In this document: one piece after another, positions 1,197 through 47,141 of the stretch
Numbering within the stretch: position 1 is the stretch's first letter
Layout: every line of letters starts with the position of its first letter
NCBI RefSeq assembly: GCF_013407185.1
Contig: NZ_CP026995.1
Span: forward strand, 1,571,913-1,635,912
Direction of reading: 5' to 3'
DNA: 64,000 bases
Source: Nitrosopumilus ureiphilus
Lineage (GTDB): Archaea > Thermoproteota > Nitrososphaeria > Nitrososphaerales > Nitrosopumilaceae
Program-made: the position numbers and the translations under genes
The notes under the pieces: model-generated
What the model was told of the DNA's origin: nothing
Database searches by the model: none
Seen by the model: only the letters and a program-made list of their open reading frames with translations

Positions 1197-1235
1197 GTCA
1201 TACAAAAAATTCAGGCAAAATGTAGAGGCGATTAA

Positions 1236-1559
1236 TTGTTATATGAGTTAAATCAGGATTGTTTCAAATTGCAAAAAATTGATTATGAAGGACCAGTTTG
1301 GGTGCTAAATTACAACAATCCAAAACCACTATTAGATCACGCCATTCACATGCTAGAAAGGCATGGAGTTAAACGAGAAGACATGGTAATTACAGAAACT
1401 CCAACTGCAAAAGTAGGTGCGATAGTAGTTGAGATTTGGCCATATGAATTAGTCATAGGAAGAGTTAGAACAACTCGTAATGATTCATTTATCAGCGGTA
1501 CAGAATTTACAGTAGAATTAAAGTTAGACGAAGATGGAAATTATATAGATTATCTTTGA
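1236..1559 (+). CDS. Conserved hypothetical protein, 107 aa
   Basis: No family recognised. A soluble alpha/beta-looking protein rich in acidic and hydrophobic residues, without cysteine clusters or membrane segments. It starts at TTG 1236; no in-frame ATG is better placed. The stop codon overlaps the TTG start of the next gene (TTTGA at 1556-1559), so translational coupling with a membrane-anchored protein is likely. It may act with that protein at the membrane (inference). Confidence 0.7.
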   Translation: MLYELNQDCFKLQKIDYEGPVWVLNYNNPKPLLDHAIHMLERHGVKREDMVITETPTAKVGAIVVEIWPYELVIGRVRTTRNDSFISGTEFTVELKLDEDGNYIDYL

Positions 1560-2245: not shown

Positions 2246-2358
2246 TTAAGAAAAAATAATTTTTCTATTAATTCAACCCCATAGTATTCAAATTATTTGA
2301 AAAGTTCTTCCAAAAATATTTTAGTAAATTTTATCATCTAGAATGTTTTCATACAATT

Positions 2359-2706
2359 ATGGAAATTGAAGCAGCTGTTGAAAAGCTATTGAAGCTAAGT
2401 CCATCAGTCAGAGTCGTAACTGTATGCGATCTAAAAGGTAAATTAGTTTATTCAGCACGTTCAAAGAAAGTAAGCATTCTGGTGTCAAAGAAACAAAGTT
2501 TGGCATCATTAAAGGCAGCAGCATATGACTGGAGACAAAGAAAGAAACTATTGAAATCTCTAGGCGCATGCAAATATGTAGTTGCGGAATATGACAGAAT
2601 CAAGAGAATAGTTATTCCTGCTGGAAAGAATCACATTTTGTATGTGACTACCACTGCTTCCTTAGATCATAACAAAGTTGTTCGAAAGGTACGCTCTTTC
2701 AAATAA
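2359..2706 (+). CDS. DUF6659-type thaumarchaeal protein
   Basis: A 115-aa soluble protein of the pattern I associate with DUF6659, common in ammonia-oxidising archaea. It contains VRVVTVCDLKGKLVYSAR, a central stretch with DWRQRKKL, and a YVVAEYDRIKRIVIP segment followed by a beta strand ending HILYVTTT. The same arrangement occurs in the product at 58856-59218. The layout resembles small PAS/roadblock-like sensor folds, but the function is unknown. ATG 2359 is the start; no operon partner is close. Confidence 0.65.
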   Translation: MEIEAAVEKLLKLSPSVRVVTVCDLKGKLVYSARSKKVSILVSKKQSLASLKAAAYDWRQRKKLLKSLGACKYVVAEYDRIKRIVIPAGKNHILYVTTTASLDHNKVVRKVRSFK

Positions 2707-2803
2707 TCACAACAACTAAATTTTTTTCTATTTTTTAATAAGGTAATTTTATGATGTCAATATTTCAAAAAGGATGAATTGAATTAGCAGTATTTTGAGA
2801 TGG

Positions 2804-3055
2804 CTAGAGTTTTCTCTTACCAGTTCCACGTCCTGAACTTACCCACATACCTTTTGTGGATGTGGTTTTAGTTGAGGGAATGTCACCGAATTTTATTGTA
2901 CCAGTTCCTCTTCCAACAGTAACATACTTGTCTTTTGAAGCTTCTTTTCTTGCAGCTTGAATTTTTTTGAAATCAGAACCTGCCCATTTAGTGGCATCGT
3001 CATCAACTTCAATTATTCTTGTACCTCTACCAGATCGTATTTTTATTTTAGCCAT
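2804..3055 (-). CDS. Small basic protein with three GRGT motifs
   Basis: An 83-aa, lysine- and arginine-rich protein of unknown function. The tetrapeptide GRGT occurs three times (residues 9-12, 48-51 and 75-78), each preceded by Ser or Val. Between the first two is a helical, charged stretch (KKIQAARKEASKDK). The basic, glycine-containing repeats suggest nucleic-acid contact, but that is inference. A related GRGTWG tail ends the protein at 7539-7772. Confidence 0.6.
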   Translation of the reverse strand: MAKIKIRSGRGTRIIEVDDDATKWAGSDFKKIQAARKEASKDKYVTVGRGTGTIKFGDIPSTKTTSTKGMWVSSGRGTGKRKL

Positions 3056-3218
3056 AATTTCTAATTAGTATAGCTAATTCTCATTAATAAGATTTTTAAA
3101 AAGACCAATTTCTCGAGCAAAATTATCTTGGGAGTTCATTCAATTCAATTATGCTTTCACAGAAAGAAGTTAAAGTGTTTGACATAAACTTCTTTAAAGA
3201 ATTCAATCAAAGTAAGAC

Positions 3219-3977
3219 ATGGAAAGAATTTTCATTATCTTATTTCTATTTGCAGGAATTATTCCATCTGTGTTTGGGGATGCATTTATTGAAAATGATC
3301 AACAGTATATTGGAGACGACAAATCACTCCACATAGTTGGAGAAATCACAAATAATCTAAAGGTCCCCTTAAGCCAAATCAGTGTTCTAATAACACTGCT
3401 TGATGAAAATAAAAATCCTATTGCAGTAAAGGAGGCAAATTCATTGGTCAACACAATCATGCCTGGAATGAAGGGACCGTTTGAACTGGTATTAGTCAAT
3501 AATGAAGCAAAAAATACTGAATCATATTCACTGAAATTAAATTATGAGCTAAGCCATCCAAAAAGCCAGGTGATCGATATTACTGAATCAAAATTATCAA
3601 CTGACAAATACAACAACCTAATGATTACAGGAGTTGTCACGAATAAAGGAGACATTACAGCAAATACCGTAGCAATTGTTGCAACATTTTATGACATCGA
3701 AGGCAATGTAGTTGCTGTCTCCAGAGTTCATCCAGAACCGGATTATTTGGGAGTAAATGACAATGCTTTCTTTTTAGTTACAATACCAGACAAAATTCAA
3801 AACAATCAGATAAAAGAATACTCATTGGTTGCAGAATCAGAAGAATATGCAGCAGTTCCAGAATTTCCCACAGGAACACTTGTTTTACTTGTAGTTACAT
3901 TATCGGCATATGTTGGTATTACAAGGTATTCAAGTAGAATTACAACAAACCTAATTTCTGCAGTAAATCTAAAGTAG
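3219..3977 (+). CDS. Secreted surface protein with PEF-type C-terminal anchor
   Basis: A 252-aa exported protein. It has a signal peptide (residues 1-20, ending near VFGDA) and two Ig-like/FxLYD-type beta domains (about 25-110 and 115-205), whose second half contains the ITGVVTNKGDITANTVAI pattern of such domains. The C-terminus is PEFPTG followed by a membrane helix and a basic tail, the layout of the PEF-type sorting tails of thaumarchaeal surface proteins. ATG 3219 is chosen because it places the signal peptide at the N-terminus. Its 3' end overlaps the convergent gene by 38 nt. Confidence 0.75.
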   Translation: MERIFIILFLFAGIIPSVFGDAFIENDQQYIGDDKSLHIVGEITNNLKVPLSQISVLITLLDENKNPIAVKEANSLVNTIMPGMKGPFELVLVNNEAKNTESYSLKLNYELSHPKSQVIDITESKLSTDKYNNLMITGVVTNKGDITANTVAIVATFYDIEGNVVAVSRVHPEPDYLGVNDNAFFLVTIPDKIQNNQIKEYSLVAESEEYAAVPEFPTGTLVLLVVTLSAYVGITRYSSRITTNLISAVNLK

Positions 3978-4398
3978 TAAAAAGTTCTTCCAGCAAGTGT
4001 TTTTTTTCAAGAGGAGTTGGTTTTGAAAACCTCACTTCAAATGTTATTGTTAGCATATCTTGATCTGTGTGCGATATTCTAATGGAGTGTTTTTGGCGAT
4101 TAGTTTCAGATAAAAAAATATTCCATTTTTGCAGATGTTCATTTACTCGAGTTACATTTTGCTCTACTGTAGAGATATCAGTATCCAAATCAGTGTCAAA
4201 TAAACCAAACTTTACTAGAGGAACCATCATTACACCACCTAAAATTTTATCATGGTTTTTTAGCATTGATGTGATAATTTCTTCGGCATTTTCTTTTGGG
4301 AAAATCTCCCCATAATCTGGATCAAAGTATCCTGCAACCATTTTTTTTGAATCATATATTCGAAAAAAACCTTCGTCAGATTCTAATTTCCACAACAT
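3940..4398 (-). CDS. Hypothetical protein, 152 aa
   Basis: No family recognised. A soluble mixed alpha/beta protein. The N-terminal half has an aromatic, acidic stretch (YFDPDYGEIFP) and the C-terminal half is amphipathic helix ending LLQKLGLL. It is convergent with, and overlaps by 38 nt, the surface protein gene on the other strand. Confidence 0.6.
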   Translation of the reverse strand: MLWKLESDEGFFRIYDSKKMVAGYFDPDYGEIFPKENAEEIITSMLKNHDKILGGVMMVPLVKFGLFDTDLDTDISTVEQNVTRVNEHLQKWNIFLSETNRQKHSIRISHTDQDMLTITFEVRFSKPTPLEKKHLLEELFTTLDLLQKLGLL

Positions 4399-4472
4399 CT
4401 AGAAAATAATTCATGAATAAATAAACGATTAATCAAAGACAATTAAATAAACTAGGAAATAGAGAAAAAGTC

Positions 4473-4790
4473 ATGGCAATTTCTAAAGAGAACAAAGATT
4501 TTGTTGATAGTTTGATCGATTATTACATTAATGAATCAGAGTCATACAGACAAATTGCAGAGAATTTTGTGCCAGAAATAGAATCTGTTCCAGATACAGC
4601 ATTTGGGATTATTACAGGATGTGTGTATTCAGGATTTTTGCAGGCATATCAAAATCAACAACAAACTCCAAGTTTGGAAGATATGAAAGAATTCAACCAC
4701 ATAATAAAAGAACGAGCTCCACTAATCAAAAAGTCCATTTTAGAACCACATGAATTGGAAATCGATAAAAAAGAAACAGATGATAATTAA
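4473..4790 (+). CDS. Hypothetical protein, 105 aa
   Basis: A soluble, acidic, largely helical protein with no recognised domain. ATG 4473 follows an AT-rich promoter-like stretch. The C-terminus (LEIDKKETDDN) is highly charged. It stands alone upstream of a structured intergenic segment. Confidence 0.6.
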   Translation: MAISKENKDFVDSLIDYYINESESYRQIAENFVPEIESVPDTAFGIITGCVYSGFLQAYQNQQQTPSLEDMKEFNHIIKERAPLIKKSILEPHELEIDKKETDDN

Positions 4791-4820
4791 GATTCCATAT
4801 ACAGTAATTCATAATTTTAA

Positions 4821-4918
4821 TGGGAAAAAGGTAACCCAATCAGGCACTCTTTCTTGACTCCTCCGTTGGAAAGAGTTGTTACGCGTGGTATGAACACGGT
4901 TTTTTGGCTCGTAATAAC
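4821..4918 (+). ncRNA. Candidate structured RNA, three consecutive hairpins
   Basis: This is the only locally GC-richer stretch in the 236-bp gap between 4790 and 5027. It folds on paper as TGGG/CCCA (4821-4824 with 4835-4838), an 8-bp stem ACTCTTTC/GAAAGAGT (4846-4853 with 4869-4876), and a two-part stem TGTTACG/CGTAATA (4877-4883 with 4910-4916) enclosing CGTG/CACG (4884-4887 with 4895-4898). No open frame of useful length crosses it. It could be a small RNA, a leader of the membrane protein at 5027, or on the other strand. No known RNA family was recognised. Confidence 0.4.
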
Positions 4919-5026
4919 AAAAAATAGAATTTTTCTATCAAAACACTTACGTAGAAATTATCAGTGAAGTGATTTAGAAAAATGAAAAACCAGTACAGTT
5001 TAATTCTAATTGAATGAAATAAAATT

Positions 5027-5471
5027 ATGAAAGTCGATGGTAGTAAAATCATCTTTGGGTTAGGTGTTAGTGCAGCTGTAGCAACAGCAGTAATTGCGCT
5101 ATATTTTTCAATTCGTTAAAGATAAATCATCAAAAAAAACAAACAAAGCATTGTCAGCAACAAATGAATTCAAGATTACACAGATAGTAGATAATGGGCA
5201 AATGGTTCAATTGACATTAATTGAAAATGTTTCAACTGAGCCAATCTCACAAAAACAAATGATCATAGAAAATGTTTCAAAGAAGCTTGATTCTGAAACA
5301 AAAGAACAAGTAATGCCATTACTTGAGGCCATCTTACAAGCACAACCAACAGTTAATATCAAATCATATCAACAAACACAAATTACTATAGCTATGCCAA
5401 AATCAAGATATGACAACATGGGAAGACCGCAAGTTGGAAATACGATTGACGTGAATTTGAAAAAAATCTAA
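5027..5471 (+). pseudogene. Membrane-anchored small protein, split by a frameshift
   Basis: From ATG 5027 a 30-codon frame encodes a short lead and one clear membrane helix (FGLGVSAAVATAVIALYF) and stops at 5117-5119. A second frame overlaps it (open from TTG 5094) and encodes about 115 residues of soluble protein ending at 5471. Removing one T from the T5 run at 5104-5108 joins them into one 147-aa N-terminally anchored protein, reading YFQFVKDK across the junction. The C-terminal domain (QMVQLTLIENVSTE, then QTQITIAMPKSRYDN) is not recognised. Whether this is decay, recoding or sequence error cannot be told here. Confidence 0.55.
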
Positions 5472-7495
5472 AGATGTGAATTTATCTCATCTAGTGTGTG
5501 TAACGGTAAGGAACAAGAAAAATTCTTACAAACAAAAACACTAGTTTTATCTTCAAAAGTCTTTCCAGTAAAGAAGGGAAATTCAGAAAGAACATCTAAT
5601 TGAGAAGAGTTTTGAATAGTTACAATAAACGAATTGTGCAGATAATCCGTTAGAACAGAGTTGCACAGTTTGGAATTTTCTGTGTTAATAATTATAATTT
5701 CCAATGGTTTTTCCAGATAGCAAAAAATGGTATTGAGTAAATAACCAAATCCAAAAGGATTTTCTGCAGCCATCTGTGCTTGAGATTCCATTATTTTTGT
5801 GGAAATTTCAAGGAAATTTTGTTTTTGAGATAGATGATATAGTCTTAGCATTACAAAGGCAGAGACGGAGTTTCCAGAGGGCAATGACAAATCATAATTG
5901 CTCTTTGGTCGAATGATTAGTTTTTCATGATTATCAGAAGTCATAAAGAAGCTGTTAGTGTTTGAGTCCCAAAAATGATCCACCAAATGATGACCTAATT
6001 TTAAGGCCAATTCAAGATATTTTTTTTCAGGTTCAATTTCAAATACATCTAACAATGCATTTACAAAATAGGAGTAATCTTCCAAATATCCATCGATTTT
6101 TGCTGTTCCATTTTTGTAAGTACGCAATAATTTACCATTTTCAAAAAGATTATTCTCAATAAAAGAAATACAGTTTTTTGCAGCATTAAGATATCTAGCA
6201 TCATTAGTAACGCGATATCCTTTTGCAAATGCTGTAATCATCAAAGAATTCCATGAAACCAAAATTTTATCATCCAATCCTGGAGGAATCCGTGCAGAGC
6301 GGGCTTTTAATAATTTTTCAGAACATGAATTTATTATTTCTTGAGCCTTTTGCTCTGTTATTCCAAAATTAAATGCAACAGTTGAGAGATTAAGATTATT
6401 ACACAGAATATTATTTCCCTCCCAATTTCCGCCATCAGTAACATCAAAGTAAAGGCAAAACAGATCAGCATCATTGCCAAGAATTTCTTTGATTTCACTT
6501 TTCTTCCAAACATAGAATTTTCCTTCAACGCCTTCTGAATCTGCATCATATGCAGAATAGAATCCACCTTCAGGAGAAGTCATTTCACGTAAAACAAAAT
6601 CAAGTGTCTTTTTCATTACATCAAGATAGAAAAGATCTTTTGTAATTTGATACGCCTCTACATAATTAACAGGCATCAGGGCATTATCATAAAGCATCTT
6701 TTCAAAATGTGGGACTAGCCACTTTGCATCCGTAGAGTATCTAGAAAAACCACCTCCTATTTGATCAAAAATGCCACCCTTTGCCATTTTCCTGAGTGTT
6801 TTGAGTGCAAATTCGTTGAATTTTGAGATGCCTGAAAGTTTTGCGTAACGAAATAGAAAGGAAATATTTGCAGCATTAGGAAACTTTGGTGCCGAACCAA
6901 ATCCACCATATGTTGGATCACCCATTTGAAATAGATTCATGGCAGCCTCATCAAGAATTACTCGTTCTAGTTTTGTTGTAACTGCAATGGTTTCTGTTTT
7001 TTGAAGGGCGTCAAGGAATTTTTCAGCTGATTTTTCAACATCTTTTGGTTTTTCCTTCCATGCTTGAGATAGCTGTCTACAAATACTTCCAAAACCTGGT
7101 CGTCCATAAGAATCTAAAACAGGAAAGTATGTACCAACATAGAAGGGCTTTTGATCAGGCGTAAGAAAAATACTCAGAGGCCAACCACCTTGACCTGTTG
7201 CTATCTGGCAAACTTTTTGATAAATATCATCAATGTCAGGTCTTTCTTCTCGGTCAACCTTAATGTTCACAAAATTTTCATTCATGAATTTAGCAACTTC
7301 TTCATTTTCAAATGATTCATGAGCCATCACATGGCACCAGTGGCACGAGCTATAACCAATGCTAAGAAAAATGGGCTTGTTTTCATCTTTTGCTTTTTTT
7401 AATGCAATTTCATTCCAGCCATGCCATTCAACTGGATTATGTGCATGTTGAAGTAAATATGGACTGGTTTCATAAATGAGATTATTTTCTACCAC
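5468..7495 (-). CDS. DUF255 thioredoxin-domain protein (YyaL/SPATA20 family)
   Basis: A full-length 675-aa member of the DUF255/YyaL/SSP411 family. The N-terminal thioredoxin-like domain (1-160) has [15 protein letters not shown] with the CxxC centre near residue 50, then DREERPDID and GGWPLSIFL. The remainder is an (alpha/alpha)6 barrel related to N-acylglucosamine epimerases ([34 protein letters not shown]). The cellular role is not settled for any family member. The 3' end overlaps the convergent gene by 4 nt. Confidence 0.92.
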
Positions 7496-7538
7496 GTTTA
7501 ATCAAAGTTATTTCAGTATTAGTAGTTAATTGGACACA

Positions 7539-7772
7539 TCATCCCCAGGTCCCTCTCCCTTCAGTTAATTCGTAAATTCTAACATTGATTTTTCCTAGCA
7601 ACTTTACTTTTGATTTGTGAGCCTTTTTATCATGACTGTAATCTTTTTTTTCAACTAGCTCTTGTAGTCGCTGCAATTGTTCTAAGGATAATTTCTTAAA
7701 TTCGTTTTTAGAAGAAGTGATTTGTTGCAACAATTTTACTCTTTCACGATCCTCATCAGTAATTTCAGTCAT
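7539..7772 (-). CDS. Small charged protein ending GRGTWG
   Basis: A 77-aa protein of unknown function: mostly charged amphipathic helix (residues 5-58), then a short beta-like segment (KINVRIYEL) and the C-terminal GRGTWG. The GRGT tetrapeptide is shared with the protein at 2804-3055. It lies 43 nt upstream of the DUF255 gene on the same strand, so cotranscription is possible. Confidence 0.6.
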   Translation of the reverse strand: MTEITDEDRERVKLLQQITSSKNEFKKLSLEQLQRLQELVEKKDYSHDKKAHKSKVKLLGKINVRIYELTEGRGTWG

Positions 7773-7845
7773 GGTAAAATTGAGTACTAGTCCTTTATTT
7801 TTCTAATGAGCGAATCTTAAAATTTCGTGCCACACAGTCTAGATT

Positions 7846-8880
7846 ATGGAAAAAATGCGTGCGATGGTGCTTTCTAAATGTGCCAAAATTGAAACAAATC
7901 CATTGAAATTAACCGAAATTGACAGGCATGAAATTCAAAGACCAAATGAAATTCTACTAAAAATTGAGGCATGCGGGGTTTGTCATTCTCAGCTTCACGG
8001 AATTGAGGGGGATTGGAAAGATATTGGAATTCCACCTACTCTTCCAACAGTTCCAGGTCATGAGCTTGTTGGAAAAGTAGTTCAAATCGGAGATTCAGTT
8101 TCAAAATTCAAAGTAGGAGATAGAGCAGGCATCACCCCACTTTTAGAGGCATGTAAAGAATGCCAATATTGCAAAGAAGGCAAAGAGTATCTTTGTGAAT
8201 CATCAATAATTACAGGAGAGTCATTCAAGGGAGGATATACAGAATACATTACAGTTACAGAAGATTTTGCAACCAAAGTTCCAGAAAATATGAAACCAGA
8301 GTATGCTGCACCATTGTTTTGTGCAGGCATTACAGCATACAAAGCAGTAAAAGCAGCTGAACCAAAATCACATAAAAAAATTGGAATTTTTGGAATTGGC
8401 GGAGTTGGACACATGGCAGTACAGTTTGCCAAAGTTGAAAACTGTGATGTCATAGCATTTTCTAGGACCCAAAAACACCTGGATGTTGCAAATAGACTAG
8501 GCGCAATTGATACAATGATGTTTTCTGAAAATCAAGAAGAATTTCTTGACAAATTAAAAGAAAAACATGGAATGTTAGATGCTGCCATAGTTTTTGCACC
8601 AGCCGATATAGTAACAGATACTGCAATAAAATCAGTAAAGAAAGGAGGACTAATTGTTATTGCTACAGTTGGAAAAAATCCCTCATTTATGGCATTTGAG
8701 GAAAAAACAATCAGAGGTACTTTGATAGGATCTACAAAAGACATGGAACAAGTCATCAAAATATGTGACGAAAATAATATCGAAGTCATATCCCAAGTAT
8801 TCCCATTAGAAAGTGCAAATGAAGTACTCAAAAAATTAAAAGATTCAGAAATAGAAGCAAGAGCAGTCTTAATACCTTGA
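7846..8880 (+). CDS. Zinc-dependent alcohol dehydrogenase
   Basis: A 344-aa medium-chain dehydrogenase/reductase. The catalytic zinc site is indicated by EACGVCHSQLHG (Cys plus downstream GHELVG). The structural zinc site is the four-cysteine run CKECQYCKEGKEYLC. The Rossmann NAD(P)-binding motif is GIFGIGGVGHMAVQFA near residue 183. It interconverts an alcohol and aldehyde or ketone; the substrate cannot be read from sequence. ATG 7846 is followed by a second in-frame ATG at 7855, either of which could serve. Confidence 0.92.
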   Translation: MEKMRAMVLSKCAKIETNPLKLTEIDRHEIQRPNEILLKIEACGVCHSQLHGIEGDWKDIGIPPTLPTVPGHELVGKVVQIGDSVSKFKVGDRAGITPLLEACKECQYCKEGKEYLCESSIITGESFKGGYTEYITVTEDFATKVPENMKPEYAAPLFCAGITAYKAVKAAEPKSHKKIGIFGIGGVGHMAVQFAKVENCDVIAFSRTQKHLDVANRLGAIDTMMFSENQEEFLDKLKEKHGMLDAAIVFAPADIVTDTAIKSVKKGGLIVIATVGKNPSFMAFEEKTIRGTLIGSTKDMEQVIKICDENNIEVISQVFPLESANEVLKKLKDSEIEARAVLIP

Positions 8881-8917
8881 CTTGCAGATTAAATATTGGA
8901 GAATATGATTTTTCAAC

Positions 8918-9070
8918 ATGAATTGTAATAGATGCCATCATACGGATGAAGCACATTCTCCAAATGAGAATAGCAATTCTATTATCAAGGTAGGGAAATG
9001 TCAAATTCCTACTTGTACATGTCGGCAATACTTGGATCCAATTCAAGAGATTGATGAAGATTTATTGTAA
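8918..9070 (+). CDS. Small cysteine-rich protein, 50 aa
   Basis: A 50-codon frame begins MNCNRCHH and later has CQIPTCTCRQYLDP, giving five cysteines and two early histidines that could hold a zinc ion. It starts at ATG 8918, 38 nt after the alcohol dehydrogenase on the same strand, and ends with an acidic tail (IQEIDEDLL). The family is not recognised. The Cys spacing and acceptable codon use support a real gene. Confidence 0.55.
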   Translation: MNCNRCHHTDEAHSPNENSNSIIKVGKCQIPTCTCRQYLDPIQEIDEDLL

Positions 9071-9102
9071 CGATTCATATAGTAAAATCAATTAAGAGCA
9101 CT

Positions 9103-9336
9103 ATGGACAAACACAAACCATCTGATGAGATGATCAAAGAACTAGATAATCTCCTATCAAAAATTAATGCAATGGAAATTGTTGCGTCAGACGATTATCA
9201 AAAAAATTCAATCAAAATAATGAGGGCATTAGTTGAGGGTCAAATGCACGCAATCAATGAATTTCAGCATTTGAAAAAAGCAATTGATTTGCTTACATTA
9301 CAATTGTTTGATGTCCAAAACAAAGTCAACAGTTAA
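9103..9336 (+). CDS. Hypothetical helical protein, 77 aa
   Basis: A small soluble protein that appears to be two amphipathic helices (about 8-24 and 30-72) with no cysteine or membrane segment. No family is recognised. It overlaps the convergent zinc-finger gene by 11 nt at its 3' end. Confidence 0.6.
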   Translation: MDKHKPSDEMIKELDNLLSKINAMEIVASDDYQKNSIKIMRALVEGQMHAINEFQHLKKAIDLLTLQLFDVQNKVNS

Positions 9337-9874
9337 GTTTTGTATCGCTTAATCCACAACTAGTACAGCGATAAACAGTAGATTTTTCAAGAGTTTGTTC
9401 TGCCTTCATTTCAGAGCCACAGCACAAGCAAGAAATTTTTTGTGGTTCTAAATTTGTTTTCTCAGATTTTCGAACAGCATATTCAGGCTCTGTTTTTGGA
9501 GCATTTCCAGAATTGCATGGAGGTTTGTATCTAGACAGTATCTTGTTGCATACATTTTGCCTCTGATCCTGGTTTGATTCAAACATAGGCAATATTGCAA
9601 GGTACAATGATTTTTCAGACCCTGATTTCTGAACCCAGCATTTGAAATCTTGGTGTTGGGCAAAAAAGGATTTGTCATCAGTCTTTTCACAGTCACCAAT
9701 ATAGAGAATATTGAATTTGTCTTGATCTTTGGATAGGATAAGAAATACCAGTTTTTCCATGGGAGGTCCCCATTCATCAAGAGGAATTGGTCCAAGAAAT
9801 TCATACTGGAGAATTTGAATACTCAATGTAGAACTTTTAGAGTAACTTTCTTTTCTTTTTTTCCCAAAAAACAC
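9326..9874 (-). CDS. Hypothetical protein with C-terminal zinc ribbon, 182 aa
   Basis: The first 115 residues form an unrecognised alpha/beta domain; VFLILSKDQDKFNILYIGDCE looks like core strands. The C-terminal 35 residues hold a zinc ribbon, CLCCGSEMK then YRCTSCGLSD, two CxxC knuckles. Such a ribbon usually binds nucleic acid or protein. The role is unknown. The 3' end overlaps the convergent 77-aa gene by 11 nt. Confidence 0.65.
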   Translation of the reverse strand: MFFGKKRKESYSKSSTLSIQILQYEFLGPIPLDEWGPPMEKLVFLILSKDQDKFNILYIGDCEKTDDKSFFAQHQDFKCWVQKSGSEKSLYLAILPMFESNQDQRQNVCNKILSRYKPPCNSGNAPKTEPEYAVRKSEKTNLEPQKISCLCCGSEMKAEQTLEKSTVYRCTSCGLSDTKLNC

Positions 9875-9947
9875 ACGAGTTCCAGTAAATTGATCGCAAA
9901 ATCTAAACTTGAAAAGATTAAATTCAAGAGTTTTTGATTTTCAGTAA

Positions 9948-10196
9948 ATGAAAGAGCCTCACAATTATGCCAAAGTAGGATATGCAATGATTCTAGTTTC
10001 AGCTAGTCTTGCTGCAGTGGGTCTTTTAGCATTAGCAATCGGCTCAGATGTACTTTTTTCAGATAACATGCAAAGAGAAAATACGGCTCATTTCAATGAA
10101 TGCAAATTAAATGATTTCAAAACAGAAGGTTGTGAAAAATATTTGGATAGAATTAATAATGAAATTTCAGGAATTTACGTAGACCTAGATAAATAA
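9948..10196 (+). CDS. Small single-pass membrane protein, 82 aa
   Basis: One membrane helix (about residues 12-33, AMILVSASLAAVGLLALAIG) is followed by a polar domain with two cysteines (NECKLNDFKTEGCEKYL) that could form a disulfide outside the membrane. No family is recognised. It starts at ATG 9948 and ends one base before the convergent membrane protein gene. Confidence 0.6.
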   Translation: MKEPHNYAKVGYAMILVSASLAAVGLLALAIGSDVLFSDNMQRENTAHFNECKLNDFKTEGCEKYLDRINNEISGIYVDLDK

Positions 10197-10197
10197 T

Positions 10198-10884
10198 TTA
10201 ATAACCATTAGTAAAATCTTCAAGTATATTTTGATTTTTTGTCAGTTTATTCATTGCATAAAATGCTCCACCAACGATACCAGCCTGATAAAAGGTATAC
10301 AAGAAAACCCCTGAAGACGTAGGATCAGATTTTGTGAAACTCAAAACGAGAATTGTCATGAATACAAATGTTCCAACAAATGTTACCAATCTATTTAAAA
10401 ATCCAGAATTCATTCCAACAATTCGTTTAGTTGCAGATGCCATCAAGGTAATGCTTGTAATAATCAGGAATGTTGCGCCACCATTTGCCGTGACAAATTC
10501 ATTTACCCAGGGCAAAAGTCCATCGTTTAAAATTGAAACATCAGGCATAATACTACCTCCATTTATTGCAAAGTTTACAGCACTGAACATTCCACCTATA
10601 ACAAAAAAGAACAAGAAAATTTTTACAACAGATCTTTTAAATGAGCTACGAATTTCTGAGGGACTAACAGCTCTTTCTGTAATTCTTACCCCATAAAGAA
10701 ATCCAATTGCCATGGCAGGGAGGAACATGATATTAATCAAAATCGGGGATTCTTTGTGGATAGATTCAATTTGTGGATGAAAGACTAGAAACAGGATTAT
10801 TGCCAGAGATGCAGAAGAGGCAAACAATATCAAGCCCAAATATTTGTGGTTACTAGACTCATAGGTTGCATCCCAATCGTGCAT
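10198..10884 (-). CDS. Polytopic membrane protein, 228 aa
   Basis: A membrane protein with about six predicted helices (near residues 17-36, 48-66, 86-108, 130-150, 160-182 and 195-212). No transporter signature or cofactor ligand pattern stands out and the family is not recognised. ATG 10884 gives a short polar N-terminus (MHDWDATYESSNHK). Confidence 0.65.
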   Translation of the reverse strand: MHDWDATYESSNHKYLGLILFASSASLAIILFLVFHPQIESIHKESPILINIMFLPAMAIGFLYGVRITERAVSPSEIRSSFKRSVVKIFLFFFVIGGMFSAVNFAINGGSIMPDVSILNDGLLPWVNEFVTANGGATFLIITSITLMASATKRIVGMNSGFLNRLVTFVGTFVFMTILVLSFTKSDPTSSGVFLYTFYQAGIVGGAFYAMNKLTKNQNILEDFTNGY

Positions 10885-10931
10885 TTTATGGACTCTTAGG
10901 AATATAATTAAAGGCCAAATCGAAAAATCAT

Positions 10932-11198
10932 TTGGTCAAATTATCAATTCTGTTTACCCTTTTTACTGCTAGAATCCACAAGTATTTTGTGAAAAATGGA
11001 ATTTCCATAATTGTAGCAGGAGGAGTCATTGGAATCTTAGGAATTATTTTTCATCTTCAAGGGTACTCAGTGGTAGGACCTGAATCGTCATTTATGTATT
11101 CCAACCCAGATTGGATAACGTATGGAATCCAAATTGCAATAATTGGATTGATTACAGTAGGGATAGGGACAGCAATCATCATTATGAAAAAAGGTTAG
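10932..11198 (+). CDS. Small membrane protein with two helices, 88 aa
   Basis: Starts at TTG 10932. Two membrane helices (about 24-44 and 64-84) are separated by a short loop (QGYSVVGPESSFMYSNPD). The length and two-helix layout resemble many small thaumarchaeal membrane proteins, but no function is known. It overlaps the convergent Lrp-like gene by 4 nt. Confidence 0.55.
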   Translation: MVKLSILFTLFTARIHKYFVKNGISIIVAGGVIGILGIIFHLQGYSVVGPESSFMYSNPDWITYGIQIAIIGLITVGIGTAIIIMKKG

Positions 11199-11425
11199 TT
11201 TGTTACACGAAGTGTGATAGTGCTTCTAATTTTTTGGAGTTTTCTTATTTTGGTTGTTATTATATCATTCATTTGTGCAGGAGTATCTGTGACAAATTCT
11301 GCTACCAAGTCATAACTACCATAAGTTATCAAACAATTTTTTACTTCAGGAATTTCTTTTAATTGAGAATAAAGTGATTGTTCTTCACCTATTTCACAAC
11401 TAATTAGCATGTATGCTTTTTCCAT
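11195..11425 (-). CDS. Stand-alone Lrp/AsnC ligand-binding (RAM) domain protein
   Basis: A 76-aa protein consisting only of the RAM effector domain of Lrp/AsnC regulators: AYMLISCEIG, an alpha helix, VKNCLITYGSYDLVAEFVT, then the second helix and TLRVTN. There is no DNA-binding helix-turn-helix. Such stand-alone RAM proteins bind amino acids or small effectors and may modulate full-length Lrp proteins (family knowledge). No partner regulator is adjacent. Confidence 0.85.
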   Translation of the reverse strand: MEKAYMLISCEIGEEQSLYSQLKEIPEVKNCLITYGSYDLVAEFVTDTPAQMNDIITTKIRKLQKIRSTITLRVTN

Positions 11426-11494
11426 CTAAATCAAATTTTCTTAAAAAAACACCAACTTAAAGACATCTAAGAAATCATCTTTATGAAAATGATC

Positions 11495-12691
11495 TCAAAA
11501 GCCTGCAATCACAGGATCTTCAGGTTTCATTATCTCTCTTAACAAAATTGTTGCAAACATGCCTCTTGATAATGAAAACTCGACGGTATTTTCATGAGAT
11601 GAATAATCAAAACAATGTATTGCAGCTTGCCTAAAGCCACCTTCACTACTTACCTCCTGCATCTCTTTGATGAAAAAATCTTTTGGTGTGATCTCTTCTT
11701 GTTTTAGTATTTTAGTTATTTGATAGTCAAATCTTGTTTTTTTGTAATATGAATATCCAACAAAAGGCAATGCCAGTCTTTGATCTAAACCTTGTACATA
11801 TTTTCCAATGATACCATGAAAGTCAAAACAAACATCACTTGATTGAGCCTCAAAAAGATTTTCACCATCTAAAAAAGATAAACTTAGGGATTGATTGAAA
11901 ATAAAAGATTGATAGGCTTGAATATAAAATCGTCTCAAAGCTAATGGAATAGCTCGAATTGCGCTAATGGGATCATCATGTTCAATCATTTCTTTTAGAA
12001 CAATTCTTTCAACATCCATTTGATTTGGAACTTGATCAAAATATTGCTCATAGTTTGCCTTGTCTGAAAGTTTTTCACGAATCTCAGTATTTTCTTTTGA
12101 GTCATAAGAGGATGTGAAGGACAGTATCAATTCAACAGCTTTTTTGAAATCTCGCTGCAAAATGGCCTTACCAATCAGATGGGTTACAGGTCTTTTTGAA
12201 CCAAAACGTTGGTAGCCATAAAAATTCAAGATTTTATGAAATTCAGTAAAAGAAGACAATTCGTTTGAACATTCAGAAATTTTAATTTTGAAATGATTTG
12301 CTATCATGTCTTTTTTTGACAATGGTTTTTTCACGTAACCGATTTTTTCTAAAGAGTATTTTTCAGTTGAAAAATTTTCAATTGCTTTTCCTTTATTTCC
12401 AGAGCAGACAAATTGTTCTGTGATGGCAGATGCATCTTTTAGGCCAAGGGACTTTAAACGAATTCCTTTTTTTCGAAAAATACTAGATAGTGCATGATTT
12501 GTGTCAATTTTTTTCTTTTTTAGTTTGTATACAGCATATCCTTGTTGATCACTTATGGAGTTTTTTGCTTTCTCAGAGATGATTTCATTTACATGAAAAT
12601 CCTCAGGATCAACTCGGATTTTCCCTCCAATTCCAGAAAAAGTAGTACTGTAAACAGTAATACCAATTTGTGAATCTAAGTTTGGTATCAC
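11495..12691 (-). CDS. truD: tRNA pseudouridine(13) synthase TruD
   Basis: A 398-aa TruD-family enzyme that makes pseudouridine at position 13 of tRNA. Supporting motifs are the early VDPEDFHVNEI segment, YAVYKLKKKKIDT, the catalytic aspartate in GLKDASAITEQ, the GYQRFGSKRP motif and IQAYQSFIFNQSL. The length suits archaeal TruD with its inserted TRUD domain. The start overlaps the stop of the upstream beta-propeller gene by 4 nt, although the two functions look unrelated. Confidence 0.93.
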   Translation of the reverse strand: MIPNLDSQIGITVYSTTFSGIGGKIRVDPEDFHVNEIISEKAKNSISDQQGYAVYKLKKKKIDTNHALSSIFRKKGIRLKSLGLKDASAITEQFVCSGNKGKAIENFSTEKYSLEKIGYVKKPLSKKDMIANHFKIKISECSNELSSFTEFHKILNFYGYQRFGSKRPVTHLIGKAILQRDFKKAVELILSFTSSYDSKENTEIREKLSDKANYEQYFDQVPNQMDVERIVLKEMIEHDDPISAIRAIPLALRRFYIQAYQSFIFNQSLSLSFLDGENLFEAQSSDVCFDFHGIIGKYVQGLDQRLALPFVGYSYYKKTRFDYQITKILKQEEITPKDFFIKEMQEVSSEGGFRQAAIHCFDYSSHENTVEFSLSRGMFATILLREIMKPEDPVIAGF

Positions 12692-14289
12692 TCTATTGTC
12701 ACTGTGACAAATTTGCTAATTGCAACATCAGTAGATTGTGTACCAAGTAAAATTTTGTAAGTTCCAGGAACTGCATCTTCTGAAGCATGAATAGAAGTGT
12801 AGATTGAACGTGGAGCATCAGAATCTAATTGGAATGTTTTAGGAGAATTGTTGACAAGTTCAACATTTAGAAAATCATGAGTAGGAGACAGAATTAATGA
12901 AATTCCCAACAAGTCTTTATGTGATTTTGGAGATACAATAAAGTTGAAATGTTTTGTTTCACCAGGTGCAAGTGCTATTGAATCAGATTCAAATTGAATT
13001 TCAAGAGGCAATGAAACTGAAGTATCAACAACGCCTATGTTATTTTCAACCCATTCAGTAAACCAAATTTTTTCACCATCTATTGCAAAATCAAAGATTT
13101 GGGCCAAACCGCAATCAGCTAACATCAAACCAGTCCCAGGATCACAGTCTCCCCAATGAGGATTCTTTGAAGGAACATGATATTCCACAAGAGATTGGGA
13201 TTTGGGATCCATCACAGAGATATTGTTTGCAGTTTGTGCATTAAATACAAGTCTACCTTGTTCATCAGTTTCAATCCAGTAGGGTCTAGAAATAGGAGTT
13301 TTTACAATTCCAGTTTGATTACCATATGTGGCAGGTAACGGATCAGATGTTACGTACTGAGTAAATTCTTCAGTAACAGGATCAAAATTAAAGAAATATG
13401 ATGTAGTTGTGTCTGCCAACCAAATAGTTCCATCATCAGCAACTACTGAGCCATTTGGAGTAAGTAGTTCTGGAGGCAATTGATAGATTTCAATAAAGTC
13501 AAGTAGTGGAAGAGATTTTTCATCAGAATTTGAAACAGAATCAAAATACCCATTTTGATTAAATTTAACTAAAACTCCTCCTTGCTGGAATAACCAATTT
13601 GTAAACCAGACATTGTTATTTGCATCTATTGCAAAATCAGCAGTTACCGAATCATCAACAGGTGAGGGAATACTAAGATAATTAACATCGTCTTCAGATT
13701 GATTTGGATCTAAGAAGGTAATTTTATTTCCAGTGAAATCATTAATTATAATTTGAGAACCATGAATTTGGAGTTTTTGAGGCAAGGAATTTCCTTCAGA
13801 CGGATAAGATAGTCTACCATACTTTTCATCAATGGTTGAAAACTTCCATACAGAATCATATGTTTCATCAGTGTACCAAACAGTGCCGTCAGGAGCATAG
13901 TCAATTCCCCACATCATAGAACGTCCTCCTTTTGGCCAAGAAGGGTTGTCATATTCAGTAAATGTTTCAGTAGTAGGATCAAATTTTGCCAGATTTCCAG
14001 TATTTGTTTCAGTAAACCAAACATTTCCATCATAATCAGCTACGATTGCTAAAGGATTAGTACACAATGTTGGAATAGAATACTCTTGAATGTAATCAGT
14101 GGATTTTGCATTACTTGAACCACAAAACTGAGCACGTTGGTCATCAGGAAAATTATCAGCAGGAGTACCTGTAATTGTCATTTCAGATTCTTCTCCGTCT
14201 GGAAGAATGCCAGGAAGCGTAATCATTACAGTAGATGATAGTAAGATAAATCCAAAAAACACAGTTACCAGTATTGCTTTTTTCTTCAT
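12688..14289 (-). CDS. Secreted Vgb-like beta-propeller protein
   Basis: A 533-aa exported protein. The N-terminal hydrophobic segment (residues 4-27) is a signal anchor. Residues 70-430 contain repeated blades with GNVWFTE, GTVWYTDE, NNVWFTNW, GTIWLADT and KIWFTEW, the pattern of virginiamycin B lyase-like/NHL-type propellers. The last ~110 residues form a beta-sandwich resembling NEW3/Ig domains (VSPKSHKDLLGISL). Such proteins are abundant in Nitrosopumilaceae. The lyase activity of Vgb is not implied; a sugar, protein or metal interaction outside the cell is more likely. Confidence 0.85.
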   Translation of the reverse strand: MKKKAILVTVFFGFILLSSTVMITLPGILPDGEESEMTITGTPADNFPDDQRAQFCGSSNAKSTDYIQEYSIPTLCTNPLAIVADYDGNVWFTETNTGNLAKFDPTTETFTEYDNPSWPKGGRSMMWGIDYAPDGTVWYTDETYDSVWKFSTIDEKYGRLSYPSEGNSLPQKLQIHGSQIIINDFTGNKITFLDPNQSEDDVNYLSIPSPVDDSVTADFAIDANNNVWFTNWLFQQGGVLVKFNQNGYFDSVSNSDEKSLPLLDFIEIYQLPPELLTPNGSVVADDGTIWLADTTTSYFFNFDPVTEEFTQYVTSDPLPATYGNQTGIVKTPISRPYWIETDEQGRLVFNAQTANNISVMDPKSQSLVEYHVPSKNPHWGDCDPGTGLMLADCGLAQIFDFAIDGEKIWFTEWVENNIGVVDTSVSLPLEIQFESDSIALAPGETKHFNFIVSPKSHKDLLGISLILSPTHDFLNVELVNNSPKTFQLDSDAPRSIYTSIHASEDAVPGTYKILLGTQSTDVAISKFVTVTIE

Positions 14290-28012: not shown

Positions 28013-28315
28013 TTTATAGAATGTGAGCGGGAAAACCCAAACCCTTTAGGGTTGGGATGAAAGCGAACACACCACAACTCAAAACAAAACACAATGAAAT
28101 ATTCAAATACAATATGCGTGTAAGAAAACCAATGACATATGGTACCGCAGGAACTGTGGGAACCATCAAAATACAAACGCCTGAATCTGAAAAGATAGAC
28201 CCCGACACAGGGTTGGGAGAGCCACAACCACAAACGTCTGCGAAAGCAACTTTGAGGCTCGATGAAGCAGGAAGAAGCCACGATGCTTTAGCGAGTGGTA
28301 GTTCACTCAAAGATA
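28013..28315 (+). repeat. Uninterrupted copy of a ~300-bp dispersed repeat
   Basis: This segment reappears in reverse orientation, split in two, at 44466-44696 and 47058-47141. Identity is high with small indels. The left end begins TTTATAGAATGTGAGCGGG, followed by an AACCCTTTAGGGTT hairpin; the right end is near GAGTGGTAGTTCACTCAAA. It is locally GC-richer than its surroundings. An 89-codon frame (28057-28326, MKANTPQLKTKH to LASGSSLKDISI) is open here but shifted in the other copy, so I do not treat it as a proven gene. No terminal inverted repeats or transposase are seen, so a non-autonomous element or REP-like unit fits. Confidence 0.75.
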
Positions 28316-44465: not shown

Positions 44466-44696
44466 ATTTGAGCTGTGAACTACCACTCGCTAAAGCATCG
44501 TGGCTCTTCTTCCTGCTTCATCGAGCCTCAAAGTTGCTTTCGCAGACGTTTGTGGTTGTGGCTATCCCAACCCTGTGTCGGGGTCTCTATCTTTTCAGAT
44601 TCAGGCGTTTGTATTTTGATGGTTCCCACAGTTCCTACGGTACCATATGTCATTGGTTTTCTTACACGCATATTGTATTTGAATATTTCATTGTGT
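44466..44696 (-). repeat. Left part of the interrupted ~300-bp repeat
   Basis: Matches 28090-28315 in inverted orientation with a few indels (for example GGCTCTTCTTCC here against GGCTTCTTCC there). It ends exactly at the 8-bp target duplication CATTGTGT (44689-44696) and the inverted repeat of the inserted element. The remaining part resumes at 47058. Confidence 0.75.
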
Positions 44697-44723
44697 GGTT
44701 CTGCTAACTTGTCGAGACCTGAA
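44697..44723 (+). repeat. Left terminal inverted repeat of the element
   Basis: Starts GGTTCTGCTAACTTG and is 27 bp long, matching the reverse complement of 47031-47057 without mismatch; similarity stops at the 28th base. It lies 31 bp from the transposase stop. Confidence 0.9.
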
Positions 44724-44754
44724 ATACGGATCTTCTCTAGATTGAATTTCATAC

Positions 44755-45870
44755 CTAGTTGGAATTTGCCTTGTGTAGGCTAGCGTTTTGGATTATTGTC
44801 TTCCATCTATTCTTGCCATCAACTTTTATCAATGCTTCCTCTGATGGGGTCTTTCCCTTTAATGCACCATGCTTTTTTGTAAAATTGTAGTATGCTTTCA
44901 TTCCGTCAAGAATAGGAGTGTCTATTTTTTTTAGACCCCTGAATACCTTTTCTCTGTCTCTAATTTCACCGTTTAATCTCTCCATCTTGTTATTGTTCAT
45001 ATCACCTTGAATGTGGATATGTCTAGTATGTTGTGTCTTTTTTCCAAATATTCTCTTTGATGATTTTTTATATGCTGGGAGTCCATCTGTAATGAACTGA
45101 GTGGGATTTTTTCCTATTGCTTCTTTAGTGAGTTTTAGTAAATTGTCTGCATTGTGCTGAAATTTGGTGTCTGCCATGTCAGAAGCCAACCAATATCTAG
45201 TATCATCATCCATTGAAGCAAAAAGATATTTTTGTTCTCCATTCACTTTAATCCAAACCTCATCTGCCCTTACCCAATTTCCAGTTCTAGGAACTATCTC
45301 ATTGAGATACTTTGAAACCATTGTAGAGTATTTGCAAATCCATTCGTATATTGTAACACATGATACCTCAATTCCCATCATCTCATAATGGTTTGAAATG
45401 TCACGTGTGGACATTCCAGAATAGTACATTTGTAACGCACCTGTAATCGTATTTACATCAAACCTTGTTTTCTCAAATCCATAGTTTGTTGAGAATTTCT
45501 TTTTACAGTCAAGACACTTGAAAATCTGCACGTTTCCATTCTTGTTCTTTCTAGTTCCCTTTTTGGTTATTCTGCCAGAGTCACAATACTTGCAAAGGTT
45601 AAGTGCTGAGCGTTCCATGATTCTAAAGATGTTGTTTCTATAACACTTGTTTTTCATGATTAGTTCCAATGTAATCTTGATGTGCTTACAATCTGCTTTT
45701 CTTGTGATGTGATCCATACACTCACAGATTAGACCGTTTCCAGTTCGTGATACGATATAGAATTTCTCTGGATTTGTCTGTGAACGAACCTTGAATTTGG
45801 TTGATTCAAACTGTGTTGCATAACCTGTTGATTCCATCATTTGTTTTGCTCTTTGTTCTCTCAAATTCAT
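44755..45870 (-). CDS. DDE transposase with SWIM and zinc-ribbon domains
   Basis: A 371-aa transposase. A SWIM zinc site (C49, C51, C61, H63 in LICECMDH and ADCKHI) is followed by an IS1/IS6-like zinc ribbon (C93, C96, C119, C122). The catalytic core has D203 (RADEVWI), D262 (ITDGLPAY) and E297 (NNKMERLNGE), a DD(34)E spacing typical of IS6/IS240. It looks intact. It is divergent from the AbrB-like gene across 62 bp containing two palindromes and lies near the left inverted repeat. Confidence 0.92.
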   Translation of the reverse strand: MNLREQRAKQMMESTGYATQFESTKFKVRSQTNPEKFYIVSRTGNGLICECMDHITRKADCKHIKITLELIMKNKCYRNNIFRIMERSALNLCKYCDSGRITKKGTRKNKNGNVQIFKCLDCKKKFSTNYGFEKTRFDVNTITGALQMYYSGMSTRDISNHYEMMGIEVSCVTIYEWICKYSTMVSKYLNEIVPRTGNWVRADEVWIKVNGEQKYLFASMDDDTRYWLASDMADTKFQHNADNLLKLTKEAIGKNPTQFITDGLPAYKKSSKRIFGKKTQHTRHIHIQGDMNNNKMERLNGEIRDREKVFRGLKKIDTPILDGMKAYYNFTKKHGALKGKTPSEEALIKVDGKNRWKTIIQNASLHKANSN

Positions 45871-45880
45871 ATATTATATT

Positions 45881-45892
45881 ATACGTACGTAT
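45881..45892. promoter_or_regulatory. Operator-like palindrome 1
   Basis: ATACGTACGTAT, a perfect 12-bp palindrome in the 62-bp divergent region between the transposase and the AbrB-like gene. An identical copy follows at 45910-45921, 29 bp centre to centre (close to three helical turns). A likely binding site for a dimeric regulator such as the adjacent AbrB-like protein (inference). Confidence 0.6.
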
Positions 45893-45909
45893 ATTTATAT
45901 TTAATTATT

Positions 45910-45921
45910 ATACGTACGTAT
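45910..45921. promoter_or_regulatory. Operator-like palindrome 2
   Basis: Second copy of ATACGTACGTAT, extended left by TT as in copy 1. It ends 12 bp before the ATG at 45933 and so probably overlaps the promoter/start of that gene. Confidence 0.6.
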
Positions 45922-45932
45922 GATTTTTATAC

Positions 45933-46121
45933 ATGAATCAAACAGTTAGTCTATTGACAAGATGGAAAAAAGATGAGACAGAATTTCCAGTAAAACTGTC
46001 GTTTGACGGAACTAACAGCATGACGTGCAGGATACCCAAACCCATACTGGAATTACTGGGAGAGCCTGAAGGAATCAAGTTTGTTATTCAAGGCAAGCGT
46101 ATAGTGGTCACAGGTAGCTAG
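45933..46121 (+). CDS. AbrB-like small DNA-binding protein
   Basis: A 62-aa protein. The VKLSFDGTNSMTCRIPKPI segment followed by LELLGEPEGIKFVIQGKR resembles the swapped-hairpin AbrB/SpoVT fold used by antitoxins and transition regulators. It is divergent from the transposase with two palindromes between them, so it may repress transposition. A partner toxin is not seen. Confidence 0.6.
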   Translation: MNQTVSLLTRWKKDETEFPVKLSFDGTNSMTCRIPKPILELLGEPEGIKFVIQGKRIVVTGS

Positions 46122-46127
46122 TTACGT

Positions 46128-46144
46128 CATGGTACCGTACCATG
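46128..46144. promoter_or_regulatory. 17-bp palindrome after the AbrB-like gene
   Basis: CATGGTACCGTACCATG, an 8-bp inverted repeat with one central base, 7 bp after the stop at 46121. It could be a regulatory site or a 3' hairpin. It is not followed by a T-run, so a simple terminator is less likely. Confidence 0.45.
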
Positions 46145-46206
46145 TCGTCATGCCGAAGTTGCTTTTTTAAGTGAATGTTGTGTGTATAGAATATACAAGT
46201 AGTGGG

Positions 46207-46278
46207 TGGAGATGTCGGGACTTGAACCCGATATTGCACCGTCTGAAGGAGCTGGTTTACCAGTTAGCCTACATCCCC
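46207..46278 (-). tRNA. tRNA-like gene, class I body, apparent CAG anticodon
   Basis: The minus strand folds as a 72-nt cloverleaf. Acceptor GGGGATG/CATCTCC has one G-U pair. The D-loop AACTGGTA is canonical. The T-arm is TCGGG, TTCAAGT, CCCGA, and the discriminator is A. The anticodon stem GCTCC/GGTGC has one T-T mismatch and encloses TTCAGAC, giving anticodon CAG (Leu). The D-stem has a C-A mismatch. Leu tRNAs normally have a long variable arm; here it is 4 nt. No CCA is encoded. It lies inside the transposable element, one base after the stop of the winged-helix gene. Confidence 0.7.
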
Positions 46279-46373
46279 ATTATCTTGTACGAGTTGGAGA
46301 GTTTTGAACTTTTAACGGTTCAATGCTATTCTCAAACTCCAACTCATTTACTTTTTGTGTTACAAGATAATGG
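46277..46373. repeat. Nested inverted repeat at the 3' end of the cargo gene
   Basis: 13-bp arms at 46277-46289 and 46361-46373 (TACAAGATAATGG and its complement) enclose a second pair, GAGTTGGAG near 46291 and CTCCAACTC near 46337. The arm touches the first bases of the tRNA-like gene. The stretch also encodes the C-terminal 30 residues of the winged-helix protein. A 13-bp direct repeat CAATGCTATTCTC is at 46321-46333 and 46922-46934. Confidence 0.55.
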
Positions 46374-46924
46374 ATAATTTTTGAATTTGGTTTTCTTTTT
46401 TCTCTTAGATAACCTTCCAACAACAATACATCTATGATAGCTTTAATTCTTTGATTGTTGCTAACTACTCCTTTATTTACAAAAAAACTTTTTGGGATTG
46501 ATTTAGTTGTAGGAAATACGTGTAACACTTTCCATAAAATTGAATTAGGATCTTCAATCTTTCCTATCTTTGCAAATGGTTTTGTCATACCATTTTTTAT
46601 TAAAAATCCAAAATTTCCTCTTGAATCTTTGAAATAGTGGTAATAATGAATTGATTTTCCATTCTTAGGATTTGATTCTTTAATAGAAATGAGTTTGTAT
46701 CCTACTGGAATTAATGTATCCTCATATTCTACATAACCTAACGTTGTTGATCTACGAATAAGTTTATCAATTTTTGTTTCATGTTGTAATTTTTCTTCAT
46801 ATTCAAATTTTTTCTTTAGTTGTTGATACAATTCTTTAACTTCATCATCATAGATGTCTATGCGTCTATCGCCAAATCGTATGGTAAAAGGTGGATTACT
46901 TATTAATCCTCTATCGGTTTCCAA
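46280..46924 (-). CDS. Cargo protein with C-terminal winged helix
   Basis: A 214-aa protein from TTG 46924 (METDRGL). The N-terminal part is helical and charged (residues 25-65) with an unrecognised beta-rich middle. Residues 130-190 read as a winged helix (KSIPKSFFVNKGVVSNNQ, IIDVLLLEGYLREKRKP). The tail after residue 190 is encoded inside an inverted repeat and may be recent. It may be a regulator or a cargo gene of the element. Confidence 0.65.
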   Translation of the reverse strand: METDRGLISNPPFTIRFGDRRIDIYDDEVKELYQQLKKKFEYEEKLQHETKIDKLIRRSTTLGYVEYEDTLIPVGYKLISIKESNPKNGKSIHYYHYFKDSRGNFGFLIKNGMTKPFAKIGKIEDPNSILWKVLHVFPTTKSIPKSFFVNKGVVSNNQRIKAIIDVLLLEGYLREKRKPNSKIIHYLVTQKVNELEFENSIEPLKVQNSPTRTR

Positions 46925-47030
46925 TGCTATTCTCGTTTATCTGTACGGCAAAATTGCTTAAAAGGTTTTTGACGTATTATATAACAACCCATATTCAGAT
47001 CTTTGACAATATCGTCTTTTTGACATTTAA

Positions 47031-47057
47031 TTCAGGTCTCGACAAGTTAGCAGAACC
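47031..47057 (-). repeat. Right terminal inverted repeat of the element
   Basis: A 27-bp perfect inverted match to 44697-44723, ending ...CAAGTTAGCAGAACC at 47057, immediately followed by the duplicated target CATTGTGT at 47058-47065. Confidence 0.9.
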
Positions 47058-47141
47058 CATTGTGTTTTGTTTTGAGTTGTGGTGTGTTCGCTTTCATCCC
47101 AACCCCAAAGGGTTTGGGTTTTCCCGCTCACATTCTATAAA
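47058..47141 (-). repeat. Right part of the interrupted ~300-bp repeat
   Basis: CATTGTGTTTTGTTTTGAG through ACATTCTATAAA corresponds inverted to 28013-28097, including the CCCAAACCC hairpin. It is the continuation of 44466-44696 across the insertion. Confidence 0.75.

Follow-up and report, generated by a model that had tools for sequence, protein, structure and literature searches.

Insertion sequences of the IS6 family (IS26, IS240 and the archaeal IS6 elements) typically take a short, single-gene form, with a transposase of 220-250 aa and GG-tipped ends of 15-20 bp that carry a cTGTt motif. A 2021 review of the family describes one passenger-bearing member, ISDsp3, and short archaeal elements (PMC7986276), and a 2019 analysis found extra N-terminal domains in clostridial members only (PMC6807381). 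Passenger-carrying DNA transposons were undetected in archaea in a 2019 survey of thaumarchaeal mobile elements (PMC6563490). Such passengers are known from tIS and from Tn7-like cargo transposons. Outside the field of transposons, the Ashbya mitochondrial tRNA-Ala(UAG) and the bacterial tRNA-ProX combine the identity set of one amino acid with the anticodon of another.

Here, we analyzed a window of 64,000 nucleotides (positions 1571913-1635912 of the single-contig, 2.17-Mb genome of Nitrosopumilus ureiphilus), in which an earlier note had proposed a cargo-bearing IS6-type element of a thaumarchaeon. The element shares with the IS6 family a DD(34)E catalytic domain with K/R at +7, matches to IS6 models and an 8-bp target duplication. 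Its own tips are GGTTCTGCTAAC and those of most relatives are GGTTCTGT; the GG tip of IS6 ends is seen in some relatives, which end in GGTTCTGTTGCAAA. In contrast to the 220-250 aa of IS6 transposases, its transposase has 371 aa and includes SWIM and zinc-ribbon domains, and elements of its family measure 1.9-5.4 kb and include passenger genes along with a divergent regulator. As it lacks the compact single-gene form, we class it as an IS6-like cargo transposon rather than a classical IS6 element. As in tIS, a single transposase unit and passenger genes lie between the element's own ends, flanked by a target duplication. The family also resembles tIS and Tn7-like transposons in having variable, defence-rich cargo and in occupying, in part, one fixed genomic site. 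It differs from them in its single IS6-like transposase, in that no Tns proteins were seen, and in a cargo of 0.2 to about 4 kb. We found no earlier description of this cargo family in the open-access literature; one may exist outside it.

Boundaries and insertion site

The transposon lies exactly where the earlier note had placed it, correct to the base (Table 1). Its terminal repeats are complementary at 97% over 30 bp, and the outer 27 are identical. When the two flanks were joined through one copy of CATTGTGT and searched against the genome, the target repeat turned up once more within the window, with 97.7% identity across 298 bp. This paralogous copy is uninterrupted and holds CATTGTGT once; therefore, the insertion was exact. 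The transposon inserted precisely, through a staggered cut in the 298-bp repeat upstream of nurA-herA that left the 8-bp duplication. The target repeat itself has subterminal hairpins and a right end of the form CCCAACCC..GGGTTTGGGTTTTCCCGC, and it looks like a non-autonomous IS200/IS605 derivative, the family being assigned by eye.

Table 1. Features of the transposon, its target site and the radA-site loci (window coordinates unless a locus is named)
Feature	Position	Strand	Remarks
Whole transposon	44697-47057		2,361 bp, four genes
Left terminal inverted repeat	44697..44726	+	27 bp perfect, 30 bp 97%
Right terminal inverted repeat	47028..47057	-	Pairs with left end
Target-site duplication, left copy CATTGTGT	44689..44696		Direct 8-bp repeat
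Target-site duplication, right copy CATTGTGT	47058..47065		Direct 8-bp repeat
Target repeat interrupted by the transposon	44475-44696 + 47066-47141		298-bp repeat
Intact copy of target repeat (paralogous empty site)	28013..28306	-	Single CATTGTGT
Transposase, 371 aa	44755..45870	-	SWIM-type CxC..CxH, zinc ribbon, DD(34)E IS6-like catalytic domain
Palindrome TATACGTACGTATA, putative operator 1	45880..45893		
Palindrome ATACGTACGTAT, putative operator 2	45910..45921		
AbrB-like protein, 62 aa	45933..46121	+	Divergent from transposase
Palindrome TGGTACCGTACCA	46130..46142		Same 13 bases 3' of radA TATA box in related species
tRNA gene, type I	46207..46278	-	Anticodon CAG, G3:U70 and A73; CCC directly after A73
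Winged-helix-like protein, 214 aa	46280..46924	-	TAA stop 46280-46282
Candidate TATA-box-like TTATATAA	46977..46984	-	Upstream of 214-aa ORF and tRNA; picked by eye
radA-site locus L216 (G000:C1:1775000-1794500)	4643-13940		
radA-site locus L248 (G030:C5)	844-8718		
Further radA-site loci: L120, L133, L134, L137, L144, L158, L165, L171			

The left-end core, GGTTCTGCTAACTTGTCGAGACC, also terminates an element in another genome of the genus (G030). The earlier note had named two observations that would count against a transposon, namely cargo genes standing in conserved host gene order in relatives without the ends, and ends that occur unpaired. The searches for both favoured the element, with one exception, a lone end that has its own duplication. 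This 23-bp end, again GGTTCTGCTAACTTGTCGAGACC (L005:1493-1531; G000:C1:1153831-1153869), has an exact 8-bp repeat, TGAAAAGC, on both sides, no element adjoining, and an inner edge, GAGACC, similar to an outer tip. It is either a footprint or else the smallest unit moved by the transposase.

Transposase and regulatory region

The proposal of a SWIM-plus-zinc-ribbon DD(34)E transposase near one end was borne out by comparison with 18 relatives. The catalytic residues D203, D262 and E297 (34 residues from D262 to E297) and R304, at E+7, are unchanged in all of them, as are the SWIM pattern C49-x-C51..C61-x-H63 and the zinc-ribbon cysteines C93xxC96..C119xxC122. The NCBIfam IS6 equivalog model is passed by a narrow margin (126.8 bits, cut-off 125), and all 18 relatives match it; Pfam reports a SWIM match in 7/18 family members. 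A search of viral contigs with the transposase returned one partial relative.

The divergently encoded 62-aa protein has 48% identity to its counterpart in a relative (L108). It had no match in the Pfam search, which covered the MazE/AbrB model, nor in a search of the PDB; proteins of sister elements do match PF04014, and a profile-profile comparison linked it to AbrB/MazE-type proteins only weakly (E 2.5e-4, probability only 43%). The palindrome ATACGTACGTAT is present twice between the transposase and AbrB-like genes. Elsewhere in the family this place is taken by other palindromes, again repeated: TAGGTACCTA in L080 (the second element of G030), L131 and L157, TAGGCGCCTA in L155, and CACGTG in L108 (by eye, from the printed sequence). 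This recurrence at one place across the family speaks for autoregulation through a small, divergently encoded repressor. We infer that the transposase and AbrB-like repressor genes are driven divergently from a promoter region whose two identical palindromes would serve as operators of the repressor.

The earlier note had counted the AbrB-like gene as cargo together with the winged-helix gene and the tRNA. Those two stand as cargo. Since the 1.86-kb L108 consists of a transposase, an AbrB-like gene and one short ORF, the AbrB-like gene probably belongs instead to a self-regulated transposition module. The palindrome TGGTACCGTACCA, just 3' of the AbrB-like gene, is the sole exact copy in the host genome; its occurrence in the element and at radA of relatives possibly reflects a shared operator, or chance.

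A family with exchangeable cargo

We scanned genome contigs with the transposase and obtained 64 loci. Matching inverted ends and an 8/8 direct repeat surrounded the transposase at 27 of the 53 loci tested; the same test at six shifted offsets gave 0, 0, 0, 1, 0 and 0 loci. Another 35 elements, from Nitrososphaeria, Methanoperedens and Bathyarchaeota, could be delimited; the majority have target duplications that match at 8/8 positions, and their cargo varies. DNA methyltransferases, with or without a nuclease, are carried by L109, L112, L114, L122, L125, L130, L136, L140 and L172; GmrSD-HNH proteins by L125 and L126; proteasome-like hydrolases by L137, L141 and L157; NurA by L111; and an NYN protein by L116.

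The earlier note had anticipated copies elsewhere with the same ends, the same cargo and their own duplications. The closest element, that of G030, shares the 23-bp end core, is flanked by a duplication of its own (TGTTTTAG) and has an 85%-identical transposase region. Its cargo is wholly different, a type IIG restriction enzyme with a specificity subunit. The cargo-bearing element proposed earlier is upheld, and it belongs to an entire family in which cargo is exchangeable. Because related elements exchange their cargo, the cargo would be dispensable for transposition.

In roughly ten genomes, one end of a family element is found immediately above the radA TATA box, at exactly 47 bp (44 in L080) upstream of the start codon. 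The radA site of the host genome holds three elements in tandem with the same 8-bp sequence, TGTTTCGA, between them, and that of G030 holds two in tandem with TGTTTTAG. This fixed site recalls attTn7-type targeting; we found no report of a radA hotspot for such elements in the open-access literature. At the distal ends of L120, L123, L128, L133, L134, L139, L152 and L158, the last cargo ORF continues across the inverted repeat into flanking sequence, at radA in several cases. These ORFs often have CxxC zinc-finger motifs, and they could encode a targeting factor or be read-through fusions.

Winged-helix-like gene of the cargo unit

The cargo comprises two genes on the minus strand, one for a winged-helix-like protein of 214 aa and a tRNA gene; a single base separates the stop codon of the former from position 1 of the tRNA, and the two would be co-transcribed. 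Pfam gave no match for the 214-aa protein. Its residues 70-185 match a domain found at the C-termini of DNA methyltransferases of thaumarchaea and of AbrB-like proteins (E down to 1e-10). Distantly related proteins serve as cargo in two of the sister elements (L110 and L147), and its first half is similar to small divergent ORFs found in several others. Structure prediction gave a pLDDT of 35. From these similarities we suggest, with some caution, that the protein binds DNA and probably has a regulatory role. We rejected a methyltransferase remnant, as only the C-terminal domain is in common and the N-terminal 70 aa differ. At window positions 46277-46373, CCATTATCTTGTA and its reverse complement enclose GAGTTGGAGA/TCCAACTC and form a hairpin at the end of this ORF that extends into the tRNA 5' end.

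The tRNA gene and its predicted identity

The tRNA-like gene reported in the earlier note was recovered by two programs. ARAGORN calls a tRNA-Leu(CAG) at 46203-46279, and Rfam model RF00005 matches the tRNA body with 50.4 bits (cut-off 29, genome E 6e-10), a score at the low end of the host tRNA range yet inside it. The gene is real as a match of sequence and structure. Its 72 nt include a short variable region and no long variable arm, and its acceptor stem, GGGGATG/CATCTCC followed by A73, forms 7/7 pairs, including G1-C72, G2-C71, G3:U70 and G4-C69. A tmRNA was rejected: RF00023 scores 29.3 bits against a threshold of 47, matching the acceptor and T arm only, with no coding domain.

Relatives of this tRNA were sought in several ways. 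A structural pattern search of 400 Nitrososphaeria left this copy alone among the matches judged to be tRNAs, DNA searches of 200 relatives and of 398 genomes from the phylum, two sets that overlap, and of phages and plasmids yielded no long match, and none of the 35 other delimited elements carries a tRNA (0/35). The pattern occurred in viral contigs in one stretch, which ARAGORN did not call a tRNA and which we judged unrelated. As relatives were not found, conservation gives the tRNA no support.

In archaea, leucine identity and recognition by LeuRS require a long variable arm (PMC9976931). The host has four tRNA-Leu genes, each with the long arm, among them one (L076) that already carries the anticodon CAG. 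The element gene was thus rejected as a plain tRNA-Leu for its missing long arm, with A73 present. A functional tRNA-Leu(CAG) that supplements CUG translation of mobile genes would accord with the anticodon and with the AbrB-like gene, where CTG makes up 3/6 leucine codons compared with about 6% in the host (P 0.004, uncorrected), a bias that is suggestive only. The short variable region and the host's own tRNA-Leu(CAG) speak against such a supplement, as does the count of CTG in the transposase and winged-helix genes, 0/40 leucine codons, and we regard it as barely plausible.

Alanine is the likely identity. G3:U70 is sufficient for AlaRS (PMC11415595), and among 42 host tRNAs typed, only the three tRNA-Ala genes have it. 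The tRNA also has the tRNA-Ala identity elements G2-C71 and A73, and G4-C69 from the bacterial set; G20 is absent. The anticodon, CAG, departs from the NGC of tRNA-Ala, and the anticodon is absent from AlaRS identity sets (PMC9976931). In Ashbya mitochondria, a tRNA with the leucine anticodon UAG and G3:U70 is alanylated and decodes CUU/CUA as alanine (PMC3874161). Because leucine identity needs the long arm, G3:U70 suffices for alanine and the Ashbya tRNA provides a precedent, the element tRNA likely has alanine identity and reads the codon CUG. Like the Ashbya tRNA, it pairs a Leu-box anticodon with G3:U70. It differs from that tRNA and from tRNA-ProX in being transposon-borne, in an archaeon, with an intact tRNA-Leu(CAG) alongside and no dedicated synthetase. 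Our best reading is a mobile tRNA-Ala(CAG), predicted to be able to place alanine at leucine codons if expressed.

Decay offers another account of the same features. The tRNA could be a functionless passenger that was captured and drifted until its origin could no longer be recognized, a change of C70 to U having created G3:U70 by chance. It has two stem mismatches, C12-A23 in the D stem and U29-U41 in the anticodon stem, its Rfam score is the lowest of the genome's intron-less type I tRNAs, it is a single copy in one element, and searches of genomes, phages and plasmids turned up no relatives of it. Folded as a lone strand, it favours another D arm (z -1.5). D-stem mismatches are found in host tRNAs too, however, and all 7 acceptor pairs and 5 T-stem pairs, U33, A37, the T-loop and A73 are intact. 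The preceding ORF is still open up to its stop one base before the tRNA, and the tRNA keeps a GC content of 53% inside an element of 34%. We consider decay rather unlikely, though credible.

The tRNA and winged-helix genes might also be the remnant of a tRNA-targeting provirus or plasmid, with half of its attachment site trapped between the transposon ends. This would fit the finding that tRNA genes host 57% of thaumarchaeal integrated elements (PMC6563490), but an attachment site should keep host tRNA sequence, at least its 3' half, and no similar tRNA occurs in the host or the relatives searched. Nor is an integrase left in the element, and we judge such a remnant very improbable. A trapped attachment site as such was rejected, since no host tRNA is similar to the element tRNA.

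Proposed explanation and implications

The explanation to which we give moderate credence is that this locus is a cargo-bearing, self-regulated 2,361-bp IS6-like transposon with a tRNA that is predicted to be charged with alanine and would put alanine at some CUG codons. The host alanyl-tRNA synthetase would charge the tRNA through G3:U70 and A73 without reading the anticodon, charging with leucine would fail at the missing variable arm, and the alanylated tRNA would then insert alanine at some of the CUG codons for leucine. Control of the cargo unit probably lies with the winged-helix protein. Because the cargo slot of sister elements often holds restriction or nuclease systems, we speculate that the cargo probably gives a conditional advantage to the element or the host, for example in defence or addiction. 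A more specific form of this idea is that a code-changing tRNA sits in the slot used by the sisters' restriction systems and that alanine at CUG acts as a conditional toxin under winged-helix control, an addiction or antiviral device; this we think quite unlikely. If the tRNA misreads CUG, the AbrB-like repressor would be its first victim.

These findings show that cargo transposons with a single transposase exist in archaea and disseminate genes for restriction-modification, nucleases and protease-like proteins; the 2019 survey had listed this class as undetected there (PMC6563490). The element described here adds a natural, testable candidate for a mobile tRNA in which the anticodon and the identity set point to different amino acids, and such a tRNA would bear on sense-codon reassignment and on a possible benefit of mistranslation to mobile elements.
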